Shown: positions 23,636 to 37,460 of the stretch, one piece after another
Numbering within the stretch: the first letter of the stretch is position 1
Layout: each line of letters begins with the position of its first letter
Assembly (NCBI GenBank): GCA_015061285.1
Contig: SUWW01000021.1
Location: forward strand, 1 to 41,346
DNA: 41,346 nucleotides
DNA from: Bacteroidales bacterium
Lineage (GTDB): Bacteria; Bacteroidota; Bacteroidia; Bacteroidales; Marinilabiliaceae
Reading direction: 5' to 3'
Notes under the pieces: generated by a model
What the model was told of the DNA's origin: nothing
Seen by the model: only the letters and a program-made list of their open reading frames with translations
The model's database searches: none
Program-made: the position numbers and the translations under genes

Positions 23636-23669
23636 AAAAACCGTTCGCTCGAAAGAGTGGACGGTTTTT
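23636..23669 (+). terminator. tsf terminator
   Basis: CCGTTCgCTC-GAAA-GAGtGGACGG followed by TTTTT, 36 bp past the tsf stop. Confidence 0.85.
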
Positions 23670-23744: not shown

Positions 23745-25037
23745 ATGATTGATAGAGTTGTAATAGATAACATCATTGAGACTGCCAACGCACAGATAGT
23801 TGATGTGGTCTCAGATTTCGTATCGCTCCGTAGGCGAGGCTCCAACTACATCTGTTGCTGTCCGTTTCACAACGAGAAAACACCATCATTCAACGTATCG
23901 CCTGCGAGAGGTATGTATAAATGTTTTGGCTGCGGCAAGGCTGGAGGCGCGGTTAACTTTGTGATGGAGTATAATAATATGAACTTCGTTGAAGCCATAA
24001 AATATCTCGGCAACAAGTTCAATATAGAAGTCCCCGAACAAGAGGAAACTCCTGAAATGGCACAAATTCGCAACGAACGCGAGAGTTTGATGTCGGTTAT
24101 GGATTACGCTCGCAACACATTCCAAAAAAACTTGTGGGAAAACGAAGCGGAAGGCAACTCTGCTTTGCAGTATCTGCGTCAAACCATACATATGCGCGAT
24201 GATGTGATAAAAAAGTTTGAACTTGGCTACTGTTTAGAAGGTTCTAACAACTTCACTTCGCAAGCTTTGCATTTGGGCTACAAGCAAGAGTATCTGTGCA
24301 AATCGGGACTCAGCAACAATATGCTCGAAGATACGTTTCATGGTCGCATAACCATACCTATTCACAATGCGGCAGGCAAAGTGGTTGCATTTGCAGGATT
24401 ATCAACTCGACCTTCGGAAGAGACTTCGACATACATATACACTCTCGAAAACGAACTGTATCAGAAATTTAGGACTATATACGGCATACATATAGCTAAA
24501 AACGAAATGGTGAAGCAAGAGCGCTGCTTCGTTGTAAGAGGTTATATCGATGCTATGCTGCTTCATCAGATTGGAGTAACTAACGTGGTTGCTTCAGATG
24601 ATTTGAATCTTACAGACGGACAAATTGCCCAGATAAAACGATTCACCAACAACATTACAATCGTTTTTGAGGGAAGCAGCAAAAATGTTGCATCTGCATT
24701 CGAAAATATTGATGCTACACTGAGCAGAGGCGTGAATGTAAAAATCTTATTACTGCCCAATGGTAGTAGTTTTGATACGTTTGCGCATACTTACAATGCC
24801 GAAGCAGCAAAAGACTTTTTCGACACAGAACAGACAGACTACGTAATATTCAAGACATCAATGCTTATGGACGAAGTGAAAAGTGGTTCAAGAGATTTGT
24901 CCTCGGCAGTAAGCAACGTAATAGCTTCGATAGCTTCGATAAACGATGGCATTTTACGTGAGATATACACACAAGAGTGCTCGAGAATAATGCAGATAAG
25001 CGAACAATCGCTAACCGACATGCTGAATAGCTACTAA
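23745..25037 (+). CDS. DnaG primase paralogue, catalytically degenerate
   Basis: A 430-residue primase-like protein. Residues 1-95 are a canonical zinc-binding domain (Cys39, His42, Cys60, Cys63; CPFHNEKTPSF). Residues about 100-425 follow the primase core, but key positions differ from the adjacent dnaG. VEGYAD is VRGYID here (Arg265 replaces the catalytic Glu), FDGDKAG is FEGSSKN (Asp replaced by Glu309 and Ser311), YLNSPES is YIYTLEN, and RFRGRVMFPIH is THFGR-type (TFHGRITIPIH). The helicase-binding C-terminus is absent; the protein ends just after the core. It should not polymerise primers. dnaG starts 6 bp downstream, so both are probably made from one transcript. Shared LTDG-(Q/H)I and KRFTNNIT motifs show a lineage-specific duplication. 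Confidence 0.85.
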   Translation: MIDRVVIDNIIETANAQIVDVVSDFVSLRRRGSNYICCCPFHNEKTPSFNVSPARGMYKCFGCGKAGGAVNFVMEYNNMNFVEAIKYLGNKFNIEVPEQEETPEMAQIRNERESLMSVMDYARNTFQKNLWENEAEGNSALQYLRQTIHMRDDVIKKFELGYCLEGSNNFTSQALHLGYKQEYLCKSGLSNNMLEDTFHGRITIPIHNAAGKVVAFAGLSTRPSEETSTYIYTLENELYQKFRTIYGIHIAKNEMVKQERCFVVRGYIDAMLLHQIGVTNVVASDDLNLTDGQIAQIKRFTNNITIVFEGSSKNVASAFENIDATLSRGVNVKILLLPNGSSFDTFAHTYNAEAAKDFFDTEQTDYVIFKTSMLMDEVKSGSRDLSSAVSNVIASIASINDGILREIYTQECSRIMQISEQSLTDMLNSY

Positions 25038-25043
25038 TTCGAA

Positions 25044-27143
25044 ATGATTGACGAATCGATAGTTAAGAATATTATAGAGACAGCCAACGAAAAAATCCTT
25101 GAGGTTGTTTCGGACTTTGTGCCTCTTAGCATGAAGCGACACAATGACGATGATGACGAAAAAAAGGGCAGAAAGAAAAAGGAGCCTATTACACAGTATA
25201 TAGGTTGCTGTCCATTTCACAAAGACAACACCTCTTCGTTCATTGTTACACCTATTTATGGTATATACAATTGCTTGAGCTGTGGGAAAAGTGGCAATGC
25301 AGTAAACTTCGTTATGGAGTATGAGCATCTCACATTCGAAGGAGCCATAAAATATCTTGGTGAGAAATTTGGCATAGCCATTCCCAGCAACGACAATGGA
25401 GCACCAGCAGCAGAACTGCCCAACGGAGAATATGAGAATATGAGTTCCGTTGTAGATTTTGCCTGCAAGACATTCCAAAAAAACCTTTTTGAGACAGAAG
25501 AAGGGCAAAGCATTGCACTACCCTATTTTAAGCAGAAACGCGAGTTTAGCGACGAAACAATAAAGACCTTTCAACTTGGTTATAGCCTCGAAAAATCGGA
25601 TGCATTCACCGTTCAGGCATTAGCCAATGGATACAAACTCGAATATCTTGAGAAGACAGGGCTAACCATAGTCAGCCAAGAACGAGGATACCAAAGCGAT
25701 CGGTTTCGCGGACGCGTGATGTTTCCCATACATAGCATCACAGGCAAAGTCATCGCATTTGGAGGACGTGTGATGCAAGAGCGCGAAAACGTGGGCAAAT
25801 ACCTCAATTCGCCTGAAAGTGAGCTTTATCACAAGAGCGATGTGGTATATGGCATATACCAAGCAAAAGACGAAATGCGAAGCAAAAATCATTGTTTCTT
25901 GGTAGAAGGCTATGCCGATGTAATATCGATGCACCAAGCTGGCATAAAAAACGTAATTGCCTCAAGCGGAACCTCATTAACCGATGGACACATAGCTCTG
26001 ATAAAGCGTTTTACGAACAACATCACTCTCCTATTCGACGGCGACAAAGCAGGCATAAAAGCTGCAATGCGAGGCATCGACAAAGCGTTATCGAATGGCA
26101 TGAACGTAAAAGTGCTTCTATTAGCGCCTGACGACGGATCGAACGTGAAAGTCGACCCAGACTCGTTTGTTCGCAGCCATAGCCTCGACGAAGTTTTAGA
26201 ATACATAAAAACACACGAAACAGACTTCATAAAATTCAAAGCCTCTTTCTTAGTAAAAGAGACTCAGCGCGACCCTCTTAGACGCTCAGAAGCCATAAAA
26301 GACATCATCAACACCATTGCCTTAGTACAAGACAAAGTGACGCGCGATGCATACGTACGCGAATGCGCAAGCATAATGCAAATGAGCGAGCAAACACTCT
26401 TCGATGTATTGCGAGACAAACTGATAGCCGACAGCCTCAAACGCCGCGATGAAATTGAAAAATCGCAACATCAAACACGATTTCAAGAATATTCGCCTGC
26501 TGCTGAATATGAAGCATACGTAGACCCAAACTCGCCTACCGCAATAACAGCAACACCTACTGCGACCGCTGCCACAAAAAATACTCAGCCAAAAAATCCA
26601 TACGCAAACGAAGAGCAGATGCTCTTGCGATTCTTCGTTAAGTATGTAAACAAGCTCATATTTGTGGGCACCGAAAACGAATCGACATTGGGAGAATATG
26701 TGATAAAAGCACTTGCAAGCGAAAATTACGAAAGTGTAGATAGCAACTTCAACAAAATGATTCAGTGCTACATAGATGCAGAAGATAAAACGACAGTAAA
26801 ACCACAAACATTCATAAACACAACCGATATAGAATTAAGTCAAAAAGCGGCAGCATTGATGCAAGACAAATATGAATTGAGCAAGATTCACAATAAATAC
26901 AGCGAAGTTGTACCAGAAGAAGAGATGGTAGACGAACTGATATTTCGAGTGATAGGAGAATTGCGTATGAAATTGCTGCTAAACAAGATAAAAGATCTAA
27001 CAACCAAAATGCAAACACTTGAGTTGCAAGGTGCTAACAACGAAAGCCTCAACAATGTGTTGGAAGAAATAAACTATTGGAACACAGTGAAGCGCGAACT
27101 TTCAAAAATAATGGGTGGCGAAAGAGCAGTGAGCAACATATAA
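25044..27143 (+). CDS. dnaG: DNA primase DnaG
   Basis: A 699-residue primase that makes RNA primers at the replication fork. Zinc ligands are Cys56, His59, Cys77 and Cys80. The core has RFRGRVMFPIH, AFGGRVM, KYLNSPES and HKSDVVYGIY; the Toprim domain keeps the catalytic Glu (LVEGYAD, near 288) and Asp pair (FDGDKAG, near 332-334), and DPDSF. Residues about 450-699 form a proline/threonine-rich linker and a helical helicase-binding region. Oddities: a charged insertion (about residues 30-50: NDDDDEKKGRKKKEP) sits just before the zinc finger, and the finger is less canonical (NTSSF, NCLSCG) than in the dead paralogue next door. Confidence 0.95.
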   Translation: MIDESIVKNIIETANEKILEVVSDFVPLSMKRHNDDDDEKKGRKKKEPITQYIGCCPFHKDNTSSFIVTPIYGIYNCLSCGKSGNAVNFVMEYEHLTFEGAIKYLGEKFGIAIPSNDNGAPAAELPNGEYENMSSVVDFACKTFQKNLFETEEGQSIALPYFKQKREFSDETIKTFQLGYSLEKSDAFTVQALANGYKLEYLEKTGLTIVSQERGYQSDRFRGRVMFPIHSITGKVIAFGGRVMQERENVGKYLNSPESELYHKSDVVYGIYQAKDEMRSKNHCFLVEGYADVISMHQAGIKNVIASSGTSLTDGHIALIKRFTNNITLLFDGDKAGIKAAMRGIDKALSNGMNVKVLLLAPDDGSNVKVDPDSFVRSHSLDEVLEYIKTHETDFIKFKASFLVKETQRDPLRRSEAIKDIINTIALVQDKVTRDAYVRECASIMQMSEQTLFDVLRDKLIADSLKRRDEIEKSQHQTRFQEYSPAAEYEAYVDPNSPTAITATPTATAATKNTQPKNPYANEEQMLLRFFVKYVNKLIFVGTENESTLGEYVIKALASENYESVDSNFNKMIQCYIDAEDKTTVKPQTFINTTDIELSQKAAALMQDKYELSKIHNKYSEVVPEEEMVDELIFRVIGELRMKLLLNKIKDLTTKMQTLELQGANNESLNNVLEEINYWNTVKRELSKIMGGERAVSNI

Positions 27144-30989: not shown

Positions 30990-32327
30990 ATGTACAAGAG
31001 AAAAATAGAGCAAATTCTACTTGACTGGAAGAATAGTAGCGAAAGAAAACCTTTGGTTATAAAAGGATGTCGTCAGTGTGGTAAGACGAGTTCTGTATTG
31101 GCTTTCGCTAAGAAAAATTATGCTCATGTTATTTATTTGAATTTTCATGAGCATCGAGAGTATAAAACCTTTTTTTCTGGAGCACTTGACATTGAAACCA
31201 TCACACTTAACATTTCGGTAGGTATAAAAGAAGCAAAGTTTATTCCGAATAAAACATGCATTGTGTTCGATGAAATTCAAGACTGTCCAAATGCACGCGC
31301 ATCTCTTAAGTTTTTCAAGTTAGATGGCCGTTTTGATGTCCTTTGTACTGGTTCGTTATTAGGCGTGAATGGTTACAAAACAAAAGAAGAACAAGAAGAA
31401 GAAGAAAATGCTTCTATTCCAGTTGGATATGAGAAAGTTATAACTATGTATCCAATGGATTTTGAAGAATGGTTGTGGGCAAATGGTATTGAACAGCAGC
31501 ATATTGAGTATTTGAGACAATGTTTAATCGACGAAACACAAGTAAATGAAGCTGTTCATCAACGTATGCGCCAACTTCTGTTGCGTTATGTTGTAGTTGG
31601 TGGAATGCCTGAAGCTGTTTCAACATTCTTCAATACAAACAATATGAATGAGGTTTATGAAGTGCAACAAAATATAATTGAAGCCTATAAGGCCGATATG
31701 TTGAAATATGCATTACAAGCAGACAAATCGCGTATACGAGAATGTTTTGATTCCATTCCAGCTCAATTGGCAAAAGAGAATAAGAAATTCCAATATTCTG
31801 TAATACAAAAAAATGCACGCGCTCGCGATTATCAAGGTTGCTTGCAATGGATAGAAGATGCCGGCATTATTAATCGTTGTTATAACACTACAATTACAGA
31901 ATTGCCACTCAGTGGAAATATCATTCCCGACACATTCAAAGTTTATATGGCCGACATTGGCTTGTTGGTCAGTATGTTAGAACAAGGCACAGTAGCAAGT
32001 ATAATGCAAGGGAATATGTATACTTACAGAGGTGCAATTTTTGAAAATTTGATGGCCGACATACTGACAAAGATGGGTCGTAAGCTCTATTACTTTCAGA
32101 AAAGTAGCGGTTTAGAAATAGATTTCCTTATTCGCTACAACGGCGAGTGCGTTCCGTTGGAATGCAAAGCACGTACAGGCAATGCCAAATCGATGAAGAC
32201 TATTTTGGCGCATCCCGAGAAATACCATATCGAACATGCATTGAAAGTTGGCGATTATAATGTTGGACGTGAAGGCGCACTGCTCACTTTACCTTTCTAT
32301 ATGAGCTTTCTATTAACTTCTTTGTAA
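30990..32327 (+). CDS. AAA_14/DUF4143 ATPase
   Basis: A 445-residue protein of the AAA_14 plus DUF4143 type. It has a Walker A (IKGCRQCGKTSS), a Walker B (CIVFDEIQD), a sensor-like LCTGSLLG, and the DUF4143 region with GGMPEAV and a C-terminal SGLEIDFLIR...VPLECKA, resembling a PD-(D/E)xK-type fold (Asp, Glu, Lys visible). The family is widespread in accessory DNA; its function is unknown. Its codon use is AT-richer than the flanking housekeeping genes, which suggests transfer. The 33-bp repeat array lies directly upstream. Confidence 0.85.
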   Translation: MYKRKIEQILLDWKNSSERKPLVIKGCRQCGKTSSVLAFAKKNYAHVIYLNFHEHREYKTFFSGALDIETITLNISVGIKEAKFIPNKTCIVFDEIQDCPNARASLKFFKLDGRFDVLCTGSLLGVNGYKTKEEQEEEENASIPVGYEKVITMYPMDFEEWLWANGIEQQHIEYLRQCLIDETQVNEAVHQRMRQLLLRYVVVGGMPEAVSTFFNTNNMNEVYEVQQNIIEAYKADMLKYALQADKSRIRECFDSIPAQLAKENKKFQYSVIQKNARARDYQGCLQWIEDAGIINRCYNTTITELPLSGNIIPDTFKVYMADIGLLVSMLEQGTVASIMQGNMYTYRGAIFENLMADILTKMGRKLYYFQKSSGLEIDFLIRYNGECVPLECKARTGNAKSMKTILAHPEKYHIEHALKVGDYNVGREGALLTLPFYMSFLLTSL

Positions 32328-32912: not shown

Positions 32913-33274
32913 TCAACTATCGGATTACATTTGCATATAGAAAGATGAAGCAGATAGTAACATTCATATTTTTAGTATCCGTGATAGCTGTTTTGGCTGT
33001 AGTTTGCTATGTATTCCCGCAGCCAAAATGGGAAGTAGGCCCACTGACGATTCGTTTTCCTCAGCTTTCCGACGTGCTTCGTCCAGCTGCCGATTCAAAA
33101 ATCTCTGCCGACTCGGTGGTTATGGCTGTTGAGCAGTCGCTAACAATGACCGTGAAACTCGACTCTGCCGAACAAGCACGCCAAGATTCTATACTCTTCT
33201 ACAAGAAATTTTTCACCGAGAACGCTGCTCGCATATACTGCCCCAACGACGACCCGAAATTCTTTTTCCGTCTC
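32913..33274 (+). repeat. 362-bp tandem duplication, right copy
   Basis: Partner of 32384-32745, containing the -7 box TACATTTG (32926-32933) and the start of the intact SGNH gene. Confidence 0.9.
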
Positions 33275-34330
33275 TTTGCCGCACTCGACGAGGCACACAC
33301 GAAGCCGCTACATATAATTCATTATGGCGATAGTCAGATTGAGGGCGACCGCATATCAGGCACGCTTCGTCGACGACTGCAAAAGATGTTTGGCGGTGGA
33401 GGTCCAGGATTAGTGCCACTACAGCAACCCATACCACGAGCATCGCTATCGCAGAGCATTTCCGACAGTGTAGCCATGAAATATGCAGGTGGAATGATTG
33501 GTCCACGCGGCAAGCACAACCACTACGGCGCTATGGCCCAGATGTGTCGCATTAGCAACGACACCACCATATTTCGACTCACACAGTATCACTCAAAATC
33601 GATAGAACGAGTAAAAGTGTTTGTGGGTAATGTAGATTCCACACTCAACGTAGTAGTTAACGGCAACAAAAAGAGCATCGGCCGCTCGCCTAAAATCAAG
33701 ACGCTTACGTGGTCGTTTTACGCAAAAACCAATAGCGTACGCATAGCATTGAACGGTGCTGCCGACATCTACGGCATTGCATTAGATGGGGGCAATGGTG
33801 TGTCGCTCACCAACATACCCATGCGCGGTTCAGAAGGAACATTCTTCACACGAATCGACAGCTACGAAATGAAACAGATGCTCAAAGAACTCGACACGCG
33901 TCTGATAATAATGGAATTTGGTGGCAATGCTCTGCCTATGCTCAACGACAGCATCGGCGTGGGCAAATACTGCAAATTCTTTGGTATGCAAATCGACTAT
34001 ATGAAATCGGTCTGCCCAGAGGCCGATATTATGGTGATTGGTCCTGCCGACATGTCGATAAAAATCGATGGCGTGTTGCAAACATACCCACTACTGCCCT
34101 ACCTCGTGGAGTGCATGAAGCAGATATGTATGAAGAAAAATGCTGCTTTTTGGAATATGTATGAGGTGATGGGAGGTCGCAACTCAATGCCCGCTTGGGT
34201 GGCGCATCAACCCATTTGGGCAGCTCCTGACTATATTCACTTCTCGTCGCGCGGTGCCGACAGAATTAGCGACCTTCTCTGGCAATCGCTAATGAACTAT
34301 TACAACTACTATAAATTAGTAAACAACTGA
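32945..34330 (+). CDS. SGNH/GDSL-family acyl hydrolase or transferase, envelope
   Basis: A 461-residue protein with an N-terminal signal anchor. Residues 1 to about 110 are a predicted stalk; the SGNH domain starts with HIIHYGDSQIEGDR (block I, Ser near 129), has MEFGGN as the block III-like region, and ends with DYIHFSSRGADR (Asp and His of the catalytic triad near 428-431). It probably acts in the periplasm with the downstream MBOAT protein to acetylate or deacetylate an envelope polymer. It shares the promoter and first 362 bp with the truncated copy upstream. A second SGNH gene follows after 12 bp. Confidence 0.85.
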   Translation: MKQIVTFIFLVSVIAVLAVVCYVFPQPKWEVGPLTIRFPQLSDVLRPAADSKISADSVVMAVEQSLTMTVKLDSAEQARQDSILFYKKFFTENAARIYCPNDDPKFFFRLFAALDEAHTKPLHIIHYGDSQIEGDRISGTLRRRLQKMFGGGGPGLVPLQQPIPRASLSQSISDSVAMKYAGGMIGPRGKHNHYGAMAQMCRISNDTTIFRLTQYHSKSIERVKVFVGNVDSTLNVVVNGNKKSIGRSPKIKTLTWSFYAKTNSVRIALNGAADIYGIALDGGNGVSLTNIPMRGSEGTFFTRIDSYEMKQMLKELDTRLIIMEFGGNALPMLNDSIGVGKYCKFFGMQIDYMKSVCPEADIMVIGPADMSIKIDGVLQTYPLLPYLVECMKQICMKKNAAFWNMYEVMGGRNSMPAWVAHQPIWAAPDYIHFSSRGADRISDLLWQSLMNYYNYYKLVNN

Positions 34331-34342
34331 CGTAGCGCTACT

Positions 34343-35611
34343 ATGCTCATACATAGATATATATACATATTAGCCATAATCATAACTACACTTACGAGCA
34401 CTCAAGGCGTAGCGCAAGATTTTTCTCGCTTGCCACAAGTGGTACGTTTGGATTCGAATATGCTTCGCTTCCCTGGTGGCGTGTCGGAGAATTTCGATGC
34501 TCTTGTAGAGCGAATCGACTCGGTGCTACTCTTCGGTCGCGGACGCATAAACATTATGCATATAGGAGGATCGCACGTTCAAGCCGATATGTATACACAC
34601 TACATACGCCAAAACCTCGATTCGCTCAATGGCTGCTTGCACCCAGCGCGAGGATTTATATTCCCATACGCCATAGCTCGAACAAACAATCCGCTCAACT
34701 ATCGAGTGAAATATGGAGGAACATGGTTTTCGGCACGAAACGCCATACGCCAATTCTATCCAACGCAAGGAGCAAGCGGCATCAACGTGCGCACCGCCGA
34801 CACAACTGCTTGGTTCGACATCGACCTCAACACCGACAGCACACAACGCTACTACACCACGCACCTACGCATTTTCGGACGCAGCATCGATGGTCGCACT
34901 AAGCCCTACATGCTACTGCCCGACTCGACTATAGTGGAGGCCAGCGAAAGCGATAGCGCCACCTATCTGTTCAACCTCAGCGAAACGACATCGCGCTTTG
35001 GCATTCGCTTTCATTTTACTTACGACACAGCGCAAAACTTGTCGCCCGACACCTTTGTTATTACTGGTATGTATGCCGACAACGATGAACCTGGCATAGT
35101 GTACAACTCGATTGGTGTGAATGGAGCTTCGGTCCCTTCGTTTCTGAATTGCGCCAACTTCGAGCGCGACCTCGGCTACTATCCGCCCGACCTTGTGGTT
35201 TTTGGCATCGGCATAAACGACGCCACAAGCAGCCACTTCAGCGACTCGCTTCTCTATAATAATTACTTGCACCTCATCGACCGCATTCAGAAAGTGGCTC
35301 CCAAAGCCGCATTCATCTTCATAACAAACAACGACAGCTTCATGCGCATACGTAGAAAATATTATGTGAATAAAAACGGCGAGGTTGCCCGCACTGCTTT
35401 CTATCGCTTGGCTTCACACTACAAAGGCGCAGTATGGGATCTGTTTGAAATTATGGGCGGACTAAACTCTATGCAAGAGTGGCAAAAAGTGCACTTGGCT
35501 CGACGCGATAAAGTTCATTTCACTCGCGATGGATACTTATACGTTGGGCGGCTCTTCACCGATGCTTTTCTCAACTTCTACTACGACTACGACTGTACTT
35601 ATGGATACTGA
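34343..35611 (+). CDS. Second SGNH-family protein, exported
   Basis: A 422-residue protein with a signal peptide (about 1-26, ending STQGVAQ). The SGNH signature is MHIGGSHVQADM (block I, Ser near 75), VVFGIGINDA (block III, Asn near 290) and DKVHFTRDGYL (block V, Asp/His near 388). It is diverged from the first SGNH protein (block I GSHVQ versus GDSQI), and resembles the AlgJ/PatB-type partners of MBOAT acyltransferases. Its last bases overlap the MBOAT start by 11 bp, indicating translational coupling. Confidence 0.85.
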   Translation: MLIHRYIYILAIIITTLTSTQGVAQDFSRLPQVVRLDSNMLRFPGGVSENFDALVERIDSVLLFGRGRINIMHIGGSHVQADMYTHYIRQNLDSLNGCLHPARGFIFPYAIARTNNPLNYRVKYGGTWFSARNAIRQFYPTQGASGINVRTADTTAWFDIDLNTDSTQRYYTTHLRIFGRSIDGRTKPYMLLPDSTIVEASESDSATYLFNLSETTSRFGIRFHFTYDTAQNLSPDTFVITGMYADNDEPGIVYNSIGVNGASVPSFLNCANFERDLGYYPPDLVVFGIGINDATSSHFSDSLLYNNYLHLIDRIQKVAPKAAFIFITNNDSFMRIRRKYYVNKNGEVARTAFYRLASHYKGAVWDLFEIMGGLNSMQEWQKVHLARRDKVHFTRDGYLYVGRLFTDAFLNFYYDYDCTYGY

Positions 35612-37460
35612 CTTCATAGCTTTTCTACAACACACTTTCGCCTTCGACGATCGACACCCTCTGCTATTCACGCAACTCTATTTCTGGGTATTCTTCGCCG
35701 TGGTGATTCTTTTCTTATCCATCATCGGACGAAGTCGCATTGCTATTCGTAACGCTTTCCTTTGTGCTGTAAGTTTCTTCTTCTACTATAAGACGAGCGG
35801 CATTTTCATACTCATACTCTGCTTCACAACACTGGCGAGTTTCACCGTAGGTAGGCGTATATACAAGTCGAAGCATTTCCGCACGCTGTGGCTTGCCATA
35901 GGTATAATAACGAACCTGCTGGTGCTCGCCTACTTCAAATACTCATACTTCCTTGCCGACATGTTTTTTCAGCTCACGGGCTGGCAGATGGAGGTTGTGA
36001 ACCACTTTTCGATGCTCGGCAATATGCTTGTGGGCGAGGCGCGCTTCACCATAGATGCCATTGTACTACCGGTGGGCATCTCGTTCTATACATTTCAGTG
36101 TATCAGCTACTTGATGGATATTTACAGGCAACGCATCACACCCGTGCGCTCGCTGCTCGACTACGGATTCTACGTAAGTTTCTTCCCACAGCTCGTTGCC
36201 GGTCCGATAGTGCGCGCCAATGAGTTCATAGGTCAACTCTACCGACCATTTTTCCTCTCACGTCGATGGATGGGCATTGCCGTATTCTGGATTCTGAACG
36301 GCCTTGCAAAAAAGATTATCCTCTCCGACTATTTGGCGGTGAACTTCATCGATAGAATTTTTGCCAATCCTTCGATGTACAGTGGTTTCGAAAACCTCTC
36401 GGCACTATTTCTATACTCATTACAAGTCTACGCCGACTTCTCGGGCTACACCGACATAGCCATCGGCGTGGCACTGATGATGGGCTTTCATCTGCCCAAA
36501 AACTTCAATTCGCCCTACAAAGCCACCAACGCCGGCGGATTCTGGAAACGTTGGCACATGTCGCTCTCGCGTTGGCTGCAAGACTACTTATACATACCTA
36601 TGGGCGGCAATCGGAATGCTTCAGCCGGCACCTACATCGTCATTCTGTCGATAGCATTGATTGCCTCAATTCTCTCGGGAAGTGTTTGGGTAGCTATAAT
36701 TATTTTGGCTCTCGTGGCTATATGCACCATCTGGGCTCTCGTCCATCCCGACAAACGCAAACTCATCACTACAAACGTAAATGCTATGAACACCATGCTG
36801 CTTGGCGGCTTGTGGCATGGCGCAAGTTGGAATTTCATGATTTGGGGCGGGCTTAACGGCATAGGTATGATTATATACAAAATATGGAAAGCGCTCGGCC
36901 ACGTCGGACGCGTGATAATCTCGCTCGCTGCAGCTACTGGTGCATATCTATGGGCGGACGCCACCAACTTGCCCATAGCCAATATAGCTATGGTTTGGCT
37001 CGCTGCAACAGCCATTGGCGCCACCATTCCTGCTATAGTAGCTATTTTCTACCGCGGCACCAATGCTTTCTCCAACCAAATGGCTCGTGCGTGGGCAATA
37101 GCGCAGACTTTCGTATTCATAACCTTCACACGACTTTTTTTCCGAGCAGGATCAAACCTCGACCCCGCCGAAGCCAACCGCACAGCATGGGAGACAGCTC
37201 AAGCTATGGTGCAACGCATCGGCTCGAAATGGGCTACAGCTCAAATTCCTGAGATGATAGATACATATCGAATTCCATTCGCACTATTTGTAATAGGTAT
37301 GATAATACACTGGTTACCAGAACATTTCAAAAGACGTTATAGAATATGCTTCGCTTCAATGCCGCTATACGCCATGACGTTAGTCTCTGCCTTGGTTATT
37401 TTTATTGTATATCAGTTTGTTACCGCCGACTTACAGAAGTTTATATATTTCCAGTTCTGA
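35601..37460 (+). CDS. MBOAT-family O-acyltransferase (AlgI/PatA-like)
   Basis: A 619-residue integral membrane protein of the MBOAT family with about ten to twelve hydrophobic helices. The family motif LLGGLWHGASWNFMIWGG carries the catalytic His (near residue 405), and the usual QLVAGPIVRANEF and YADFSGYTDIAIG segments are present. It should carry acetyl groups across the inner membrane for the two preceding SGNH proteins, as in alginate or peptidoglycan O-acetylation (AlgIJF, PatAB). The ATG at 35601 is preferred over an earlier in-frame codon at 35529, because the extra 24 residues are Thr/Ser-rich, not conserved-looking and lie inside the previous gene. Confidence 0.9.
   Translation: MDTDFIAFLQHTFAFDDRHPLLFTQLYFWVFFAVVILFLSIIGRSRIAIRNAFLCAVSFFFYYKTSGIFILILCFTTLASFTVGRRIYKSKHFRTLWLAIGIITNLLVLAYFKYSYFLADMFFQLTGWQMEVVNHFSMLGNMLVGEARFTIDAIVLPVGISFYTFQCISYLMDIYRQRITPVRSLLDYGFYVSFFPQLVAGPIVRANEFIGQLYRPFFLSRRWMGIAVFWILNGLAKKIILSDYLAVNFIDRIFANPSMYSGFENLSALFLYSLQVYADFSGYTDIAIGVALMMGFHLPKNFNSPYKATNAGGFWKRWHMSLSRWLQDYLYIPMGGNRNASAGTYIVILSIALIASILSGSVWVAIIILALVAICTIWALVHPDKRKLITTNVNAMNTMLLGGLWHGASWNFMIWGGLNGIGMIIYKIWKALGHVGRVIISLAAATGAYLWADATNLPIANIAMVWLAATAIGATIPAIVAIFYRGTNAFSNQMARAWAIAQTFVFITFTRLFFRAGSNLDPAEANRTAWETAQAMVQRIGSKWATAQIPEMIDTYRIPFALFVIGMIIHWLPEHFKRRYRICFASMPLYAMTLVSALVIFIVYQFVTADLQKFIYFQF

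Follow-up and report, generated by a model that had tools for sequence, protein, structure and literature searches.

Bacterial DnaG primase comprises a zinc-binding domain (ZBD), a catalytic domain and a helicase-binding domain, and the ZBD reportedly acts in trans between identical DnaG subunits, an observation attributed to Corn et al. in 2005. To our knowledge, both the cooperation of DnaG at the fork and the choice between cis and trans action of the ZBD in the cell have been debated chiefly on the basis of in vitro experiments with identical subunits. PMC6783573 points to evidence that primer synthesis generally needs two primases in trans, one providing the ZBD and the other the polymerase domain. 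A second DnaG of Thermoanaerobacter tengcongensis, TtDnaG2, synthesises primers with a ZBD and a catalytic domain only, according to PMC5634424. The locus described here is a tandem pair of dnaG-like genes in a 41,346-nucleotide stretch (the window), which is contig 1 (SUWW01000021.1) of the 25 contigs of a 3.55 Mb Bacteroidales genome (GCA_015061285.1). The upstream paralogue, P0001 (23745–25037, 430 residues), and the full-length dnaG, P0002 (25044–27143, 699 residues), lie on the forward strand, as do their domains and the other parts of the locus (hairpin and spacer) given below. They are separated by a spacer of 6 nucleotides (25038–25043), and both frames are where an earlier note, made from the sequence of this stretch, had placed them. 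The two proteins are 44% identical by BLAST, and each scores above the cut-off of the TIGR01391 DnaG model, 283.6 bits (331.9 for P0001 and 376.9 for P0002). Judging from comparison with relatives, P0001 and P0002 probably constitute a two-subunit DnaG primase that was split by complementary loss and works in trans.

Constraint and residue losses in the two copies

The same pair is present in the assembly of a second species of the genus, G003 (contig JAFYCM010000055.1, a sheep-rumen Bacteroidales metagenome-assembled genome), and an assembly artefact is therefore rejected. Because the paralogue and dnaG have both split between the same two species, each serves as the clock of the other. Between the window species and G003 the identity of the paralogue is 92% in the ZBD, 89% in the linker, 64% in RPD-N, 62% in Toprim and 68% in the C-terminal part, and the values for dnaG run the other way, with 67% in the ZBD, 48% in the linker, 91% in RPD-N, 96% in Toprim and 91% in the C-terminal part (63% in the helicase-binding region). 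Counted as changes, the paralogue has 8 in 99 ZBD positions and 79 in 217 catalytic positions, and dnaG has 34 in 99 and 16 in 219 (Fisher p = 9e-13). The two copies have thus lost constraint reciprocally, in different domains, one mark of a subfunctionalised pair. On a fixed tree the ZBD and Toprim branch lengths are 0.08 and 0.71 for the paralogue and 0.58 and 0.06 for dnaG, and the normalised ZBD/Toprim branch ratio is 0.11 for the former and 10.4 for the latter, with 0.78–2.76 in 11 single-copy pairs. The corresponding ratio of identities reaches 1.47 in the paralogue, and dnaG, at 0.68, falls only just outside the range of 17 single-copy pairs (0.74–0.99). Four single-copy pairs with a Toprim identity of 94–98% have a ZBD identity of 81–87%, and dnaG here has 66%. 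The dN/dS ratio of nonsynonymous to synonymous change in the paralogue is 0.089 (0.053–0.156) overall and 0.028 (0.009–0.058) in the ZBD, values obtained with our own Nei-Gojobori script and rough, with dS near saturation and saturated in several segments.

A comparison with 80 other DnaG-like proteins places these losses on particular residues. In the three known pairs (window species, G003 and a third species of the genus, G002), losses among 23 near-invariant ZBD positions number 0, 0 and 3 in the upstream copies and 4, 5 and 5 in the downstream ones. None is lost in 68 of the 80 controls and the maximum is 3, reached by two of them, one an extra copy that is unlinked and the other mobile-element-like. 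At 71 catalytic positions the upstream copies have lost 25, 25 and 20 and the downstream copies 4, 4 and 7, and the controls 0–16, apart from 21 in one contig-end fragment. The first alignment had 24 family and order proteins that were required to contain CPFH, and in a filtered set the added controls were required to contain CxxH..CxxC and DPD, so that those columns were invariant by construction. The counts given here come from a repeat in which the added controls were picked only by catalytic-core similarity: of 46 loci, two without the core (L172, L173) and one duplicate (L167) were dropped, and 43 were added to 37. The 80 include a contig-end piece, two long mobile-element-like copies, an unlinked copy (from G297) and the first pieces of two broken dnaG genes, and some genomes contribute more than one protein.

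The ZBD of P0001 (residues 1–99, 23745–24041) has the zinc ligands Cys39, His42, Cys60 and Cys63 and all 23 of the near-invariant positions, and it is followed by a linker or long-helix segment (residues 100–126, 24042–24122). The catalytic domain (residues 127–377, 24123–24875) is degenerate. Arg265 stands where all 80 controls have Glu; Glu309 and Ser311 stand where 79 of 80 have Asp at each position, the sole exception being a gap in a contig-end fragment; and Ser342 replaces the first Asp of DPD (79/80). Leu219, Thr229 and Tyr232 take the place of Arg (80/80), Lys (80/80) and Asn (79/80), and Asp269 and Asp344 are retained. The residues aligned with P0001 219, 229 and 232 in Staphylococcus aureus DnaG are Arg222, Lys230 and Asn233, which are nucleoside triphosphate contacts, and Escherichia coli Arg199 and Arg201, required for DNA binding, correspond by motif spacing to P0001 197 and 199, which are Thr and His (both functions as given in PMC5429622). 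P0001 aligns with P0002 up to residue 456 of the latter, and the 243 residues that follow, the helicase-binding part, are absent from it. The intact zinc finger, the replaced catalytic Glu and Toprim acids and the end of the protein where the helicase-binding domain would start, all reported in the earlier note, are thereby borne out. P0001 is a DnaG homologue and, by sequence, not an active primase.

The predicted fold agrees. An AlphaFold2 model of P0001 has a mean pLDDT (per-residue confidence) of 89.9, from an alignment of 19 sequences of which 13 are ordinary single-copy DnaG, which raises the confidence of the model. Its Foldseek matches in the Protein Data Bank are led by 2au3, the Aquifex ZBD-RPD structure (6e-28), with 4e2k at TMt 0.90, and the best include the S. 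aureus and E. coli catalytic domains and the Bacillus stearothermophilus ZBD; P0001 is thus a DnaG also in its modelled structure. A second conserved stretch is the C-terminal helical bundle (residues 378–428, 24876–25028), which is 80% identical between the window species and G003 against 61% for residues 127–377 (p = 0.01), a contrast to be taken as a lead and not a test since the boundary was picked after the profile was viewed. The same bundle is less conserved than the core in 12 of 12 single-copy pairs and is only 37% identical to that of dnaG, and it may be a partner-binding surface.

P0002 has a ZBD, the equivalents of Glu265 and of Asp309, 311, 342 and 344, and 243 residues past the core, as seen with Pfam, TIGR01391 and the alignment. 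Its catalytic domain (residues 144–456, 25473–26411) is intact and 91–96% identical to that of G003. The putative helicase-binding region (residues 457–699, 26412–27140) is assigned from its location behind the catalytic core; domain models gave no match there. The ZBD (residues 1–116, 25044–25391) is degenerate, although the zinc ligands are present in all six proteins of the three pairs. All three downstream copies replace the basic residue 30 (by M, E and Q), Lys59 (N, N and I) and Phe61 (L, L and H), in P0001 numbering, and Arg31 is K, S and S, the K being that of P0002 and a conservative change. The controls have R/K at position 30 in 80/80, K at 59 in 78/80, F at 61 in 80/80 and R/K at 31 in 78/80; the upstream copies have Arg30, Arg31 and Phe61, with Lys59 in two and Tyr in that of G002. 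Lys59 and Phe61 flank the third zinc Cys, and in an alignment anchored on this Cys and the fourth they correspond to His64 and Tyr66 of phage T4 gp61. These two, like Trp53, Tyr55 and His71, are gp61 residues that stack on bases of the template in the primosome structure (PMC10359460). By this alignment P0002 has lost two of the five T4-type template-stacking positions, and the canonical DNA-reading surface is absent. Domain scores follow the same pattern: the PF01807 ZBD scores 120.3, 117.4 and 124.3 bits in the upstream copies, 74.4 (P0002), 87.7 and 95.4 in the downstream copies and 114.3–123.3 in six single-copy relatives, and Toprim_2 scores 29.5, 21.0 and 63.3 upstream, 72.1, 71.3 and 78.5 downstream and 74.1–79.7 in the six relatives. 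The less canonical zinc finger that the earlier note ascribed to dnaG is therefore right for the surface around the zinc and not for the ligands. Its charged insertion exists with 17 residues (35–51, 25146–25196; a BLAST gap of 17) instead of 20, and was dropped as a functional part since it is absent from G003.

Distribution of the pair and a probable second duplication

Matches were found in 14 of 15 genomes of the genus, dnaG not being detected in the remaining one; 11 have a single dnaG and three (the window genome, G003 and G002) have the pair. A search for adjacent dnaG copies, as the earlier note suggested, thus returned the same pair in G003 and a similar one in G002, with paralogues 72% and 41% identical to P0001, respectively. 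The window genome and G003 share the gene order around the pair. The G002 pair has another setting and adjoins a homologue of a glycosyltransferase-like gene of the window, as the single dnaG of G001 and G006 does. In all three species the paralogue frame has no stop and lies directly 5' of dnaG, with a 6-nucleotide spacer or a stop-start overlap (TAATG in G002).

No other adjacent truncated copy was found among 71 genomes of the family, of which one had no match (G008) and two only part of dnaG (G047 and G058), where a pair is possible. A sample of 393 genomes of the order, in which the best four candidates per genome were scored, gave matches in 367 at an E value of 1e-40 and in 362 at 1e-75, and at the latter threshold five genomes had two matches: the window's own and four that are not tandem. 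These four are G146 (the same score on two contigs), G169 (a second reading frame of 1314 residues on another contig), G259 (a 306-residue piece that runs to the contig end) and G297 (an unlinked copy that has an intact Toprim and lacks the helicase-binding domain). Among 198 genomes of the class, 174 matched at 1e-65 and the only one with two matches was the window's own, which is the only tandem found in the order and class samples. A locus scan with two short ZBD patterns, which is not a census, gave 156 loci, and among the best 80 only that of G003 (L060) had two matches. The DnaB N-terminal domain was found once in each of six genomes examined, with no matching helicase duplication seen. 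In the class sample, several genomes of families f140, f162 and f170, most of them more than 90% complete, had no P0001 match at 1e-65; these genomes may have a DnaG that is more diverged or of another architecture.

The two G002 copies are sisters (support 99.1/100 in the LG+F+G tree and 100/98 in the C20 PMSF tree); they fall with G001 and G006, away from the other pair. The truncated copies come together in none of 200 bootstrap trees, and forcing the three into one group is 67 log-likelihood units worse (p = 0.0006 in the approximately unbiased, AU, test). One shared duplication for all three pairs was rejected on this test, with the caveats that branches are long and that the group was named after the first tree. 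The G002 pair apparently comes from a separate, second duplication. It shows the division of the first pair in a weaker form: changes in ZBD and catalytic columns number 5 and 31 in its upstream copy and 12 and 17 in its downstream copy (p = 0.02, over columns that G001 and G006 share with 70% or more of the controls).

Readings of the pair

In the arrangement that we favour, P0001 would be the site-reading subunit, whose zinc ribbon reads the start site on the template and whose dead catalytic domain would serve as a scaffold only. P0002 would act as the catalytic subunit and be anchored to the DnaB helicase through its own C-terminal domain; its zinc ribbon probably still folds but reads DNA poorly. 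Priming would occur in trans, the ribbon of P0001 acting on the catalytic domain of P0002; a physical complex, trans priming and recruitment by way of the partner instead of the helicase are the steps that we infer. The origin of the pair would be a duplication after which the two copies underwent complementary loss, an event that apparently took place twice in one genus; given the trans action described for the DnaG ZBD, such loss would be easy. The earlier note had proposed that the paralogue donates its zinc finger or modulates primer synthesis. The comparative evidence supports this proposal short of proof and favours donation, because of the reciprocal constraint on domains, the DNA-facing losses in the partner's ZBD and the second, apparently independent case. 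With somewhat less assurance, we lean towards a natural heteromeric primase that has given up cis priming, so that dnaG cannot start primers alone, the dead paralogue is the reading head and the arrangement has evolved at least twice in the genus.

Several observations weigh against this interpretation. The weakest step is how P0001, having no helicase-binding domain, would be recruited to the fork. The dnaG ZBD is still somewhat constrained (dN/dS 0.15, zinc ligands present), and the saturation of dS bears on all such ratios. A single-copy dnaG of the genus (G005) has lost 14 of the 71 catalytic positions with all catalytic acids kept, so that many catalytic losses alone are no proof of death. 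Columns, domain boundaries and the AU group were picked after the data had been seen. The two origins rest on fast-evolving, long-branch sequences, and the four proteins of the window and G003 pairs group with weak support (62/19), which leaves the site of the first duplication on the tree unsure. The G002 case is weaker: its near-invariant columns give 3:20 against 5:7 (p = 0.09; p = 0.06 with the filtered control set). Its upstream copy has lost three ZBD positions, equal to the worst controls, and it retains Glu265, both DxD acids and Asp344, having lost D342, N232 and K241; it may not be dead, and may represent an earlier stage or be still partly active.

The alternative that survives best, although we consider it unlikely, is that P0001 acts as a dead competitor or modulator and tunes the rate or place of priming, with dnaG initiating through its own zinc ribbon, re-tuned to another start-site preference. 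A regulator of this kind fits a P0001 that retains the ZBD and has lost its catalytic residues, as well as a dnaG ZBD that keeps its zinc ligands and some constraint. However, the losses in that ZBD strike positions fixed or nearly fixed in the 80 other DnaG-like proteins and a similar loss goes with the second duplication, and regulation gives no reason for the drift of the catalytic partner's ZBD. It is more doubtful still that P0001 has a separate role as a ZBD-based single-strand binding protein in repair, restart or defence, the dnaG ZBD having changed for unrelated reasons. Such a role would agree with the missing helicase-binding domain and the drifting catalytic domain, but P0001 stays directly 5' of dnaG in all three cases, and the changes in the two genes fall in complementary domains.

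That P0001 is a duplicate decaying into a pseudogene is hardly credible. The lost active-site residues, the missing helicase-binding domain and the single dnaG of the 11 genus genomes would suit decay, and absence from relatives is one of the signs of a pseudogene that the earlier note had named; but the other signs, stop codons and a dN/dS near 1, did not appear. The frame is open in three species, dN/dS is far below 1, above all in the ZBD, and the reading was rejected on these grounds. In addition, the ZBD, linker and C-terminal bundle are conserved and the position beside dnaG is the same. Since frames are open and dN/dS is low, the absence of the paralogue from other genus genomes is read as a lineage-specific duplication, and the view that the 430-codon frame is kept holds. 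There is next to no chance that P0001 is a second active primase without a helicase-binding domain, resembling TtDnaG2 in the domains present and missing (PMC5634424), as the catalytic Glu, DxD, one Asp of DPD and the NTP-binding Arg, Lys and Asn are gone in both close species.

If cis priming has indeed been given up, in a heteromeric primase that evolved at least twice in one genus, trans priming would suffice to replicate a chromosome in vivo. A two-subunit primase would also show that a core single-gene replication enzyme can become a two-gene complex by simple complementary loss. A natural pair with separated activities makes the cis/trans question directly testable, subunit by subunit. 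A search of open-licence literature, which is not proof of novelty, found no paper on a tandem, duplicated, heterodimeric or inactive DnaG pair of this type.

Surroundings of the pair and comparison with known systems

The pair is flanked by genes that we take, by eye, to be tsf and secDF. A terminator-like hairpin with a T-rich tail follows the putative tsf (23636–23669; 15 pairs, a consensus match in a pattern scan). Because this hairpin would close the upstream unit, the pair probably forms its own transcript. A promoter scan gave 8 matches against a shuffle mean of 8.1, and no promoter is claimed. Downstream, an AAA/DUF4143 ATPase gene (30990–32327) is 99.6% identical to its counterpart in G003 (L045, 17533–18870) with a dS of 0.015, and seven other flanking genes tested between the two species have dS from 0.19 to more than 2; the ATPase gene looks like a recent transfer or recombination. 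A cluster with GDSL-type and MBOAT acyltransferase genes lies about 6–10 kb 3' of dnaG (32945–37460), and homologues of its genes lie directly 5' of dnaG in the single-copy genomes G005, G010, G011, G012 and G013. Elsewhere in the order, the unlinked copy of G297, from another family (L168, 1465–2811), encodes a DnaG-like protein of about 443 residues that has Toprim intact and ends before the helicase-binding domain, directly 5' of a gene that is FtsK-like by eye. In G218 (L165, 1498–3435) dnaG is interrupted past the core by an in-frame stop and a helicase-binding-like stretch continues in the same frame, and in G036 (L162) it is interrupted after the catalytic core by a frame change; these breaks are either assembly errors or real splits.

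P0001 and P0002 are both DnaG by sequence, and the trans use of the ZBD in bacterial DnaG would be the basis for a split. Unlike in bacterial DnaG, the ZBD and catalytic roles here seem to be divided between two genes, the domain that serves in one being degenerate in the other, and the putative site reader has no helicase-binding domain. The nearest published case found is TtDnaG2 (PMC5634424), which is like P0001 a second DnaG with a ZBD and a catalytic domain and without a helicase-binding domain; it makes primers, whereas P0001 lacks the catalytic residues and adjoins dnaG. T4 gp61 resembles P0001 in that ZBD residues beside the third zinc Cys, which map to Lys59 and Phe61, stack on the template. 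It differs from the pair in being one phage polypeptide with both functions and four Cys ligands, and in its distant similarity (Foldseek E 2e-7). Duplication-degeneration-complementation is a general model of gene pairs, and the likeness to it lies in the complementary loss of subfunctions in two copies; the difference is that here a replication primase would have been split by domain.

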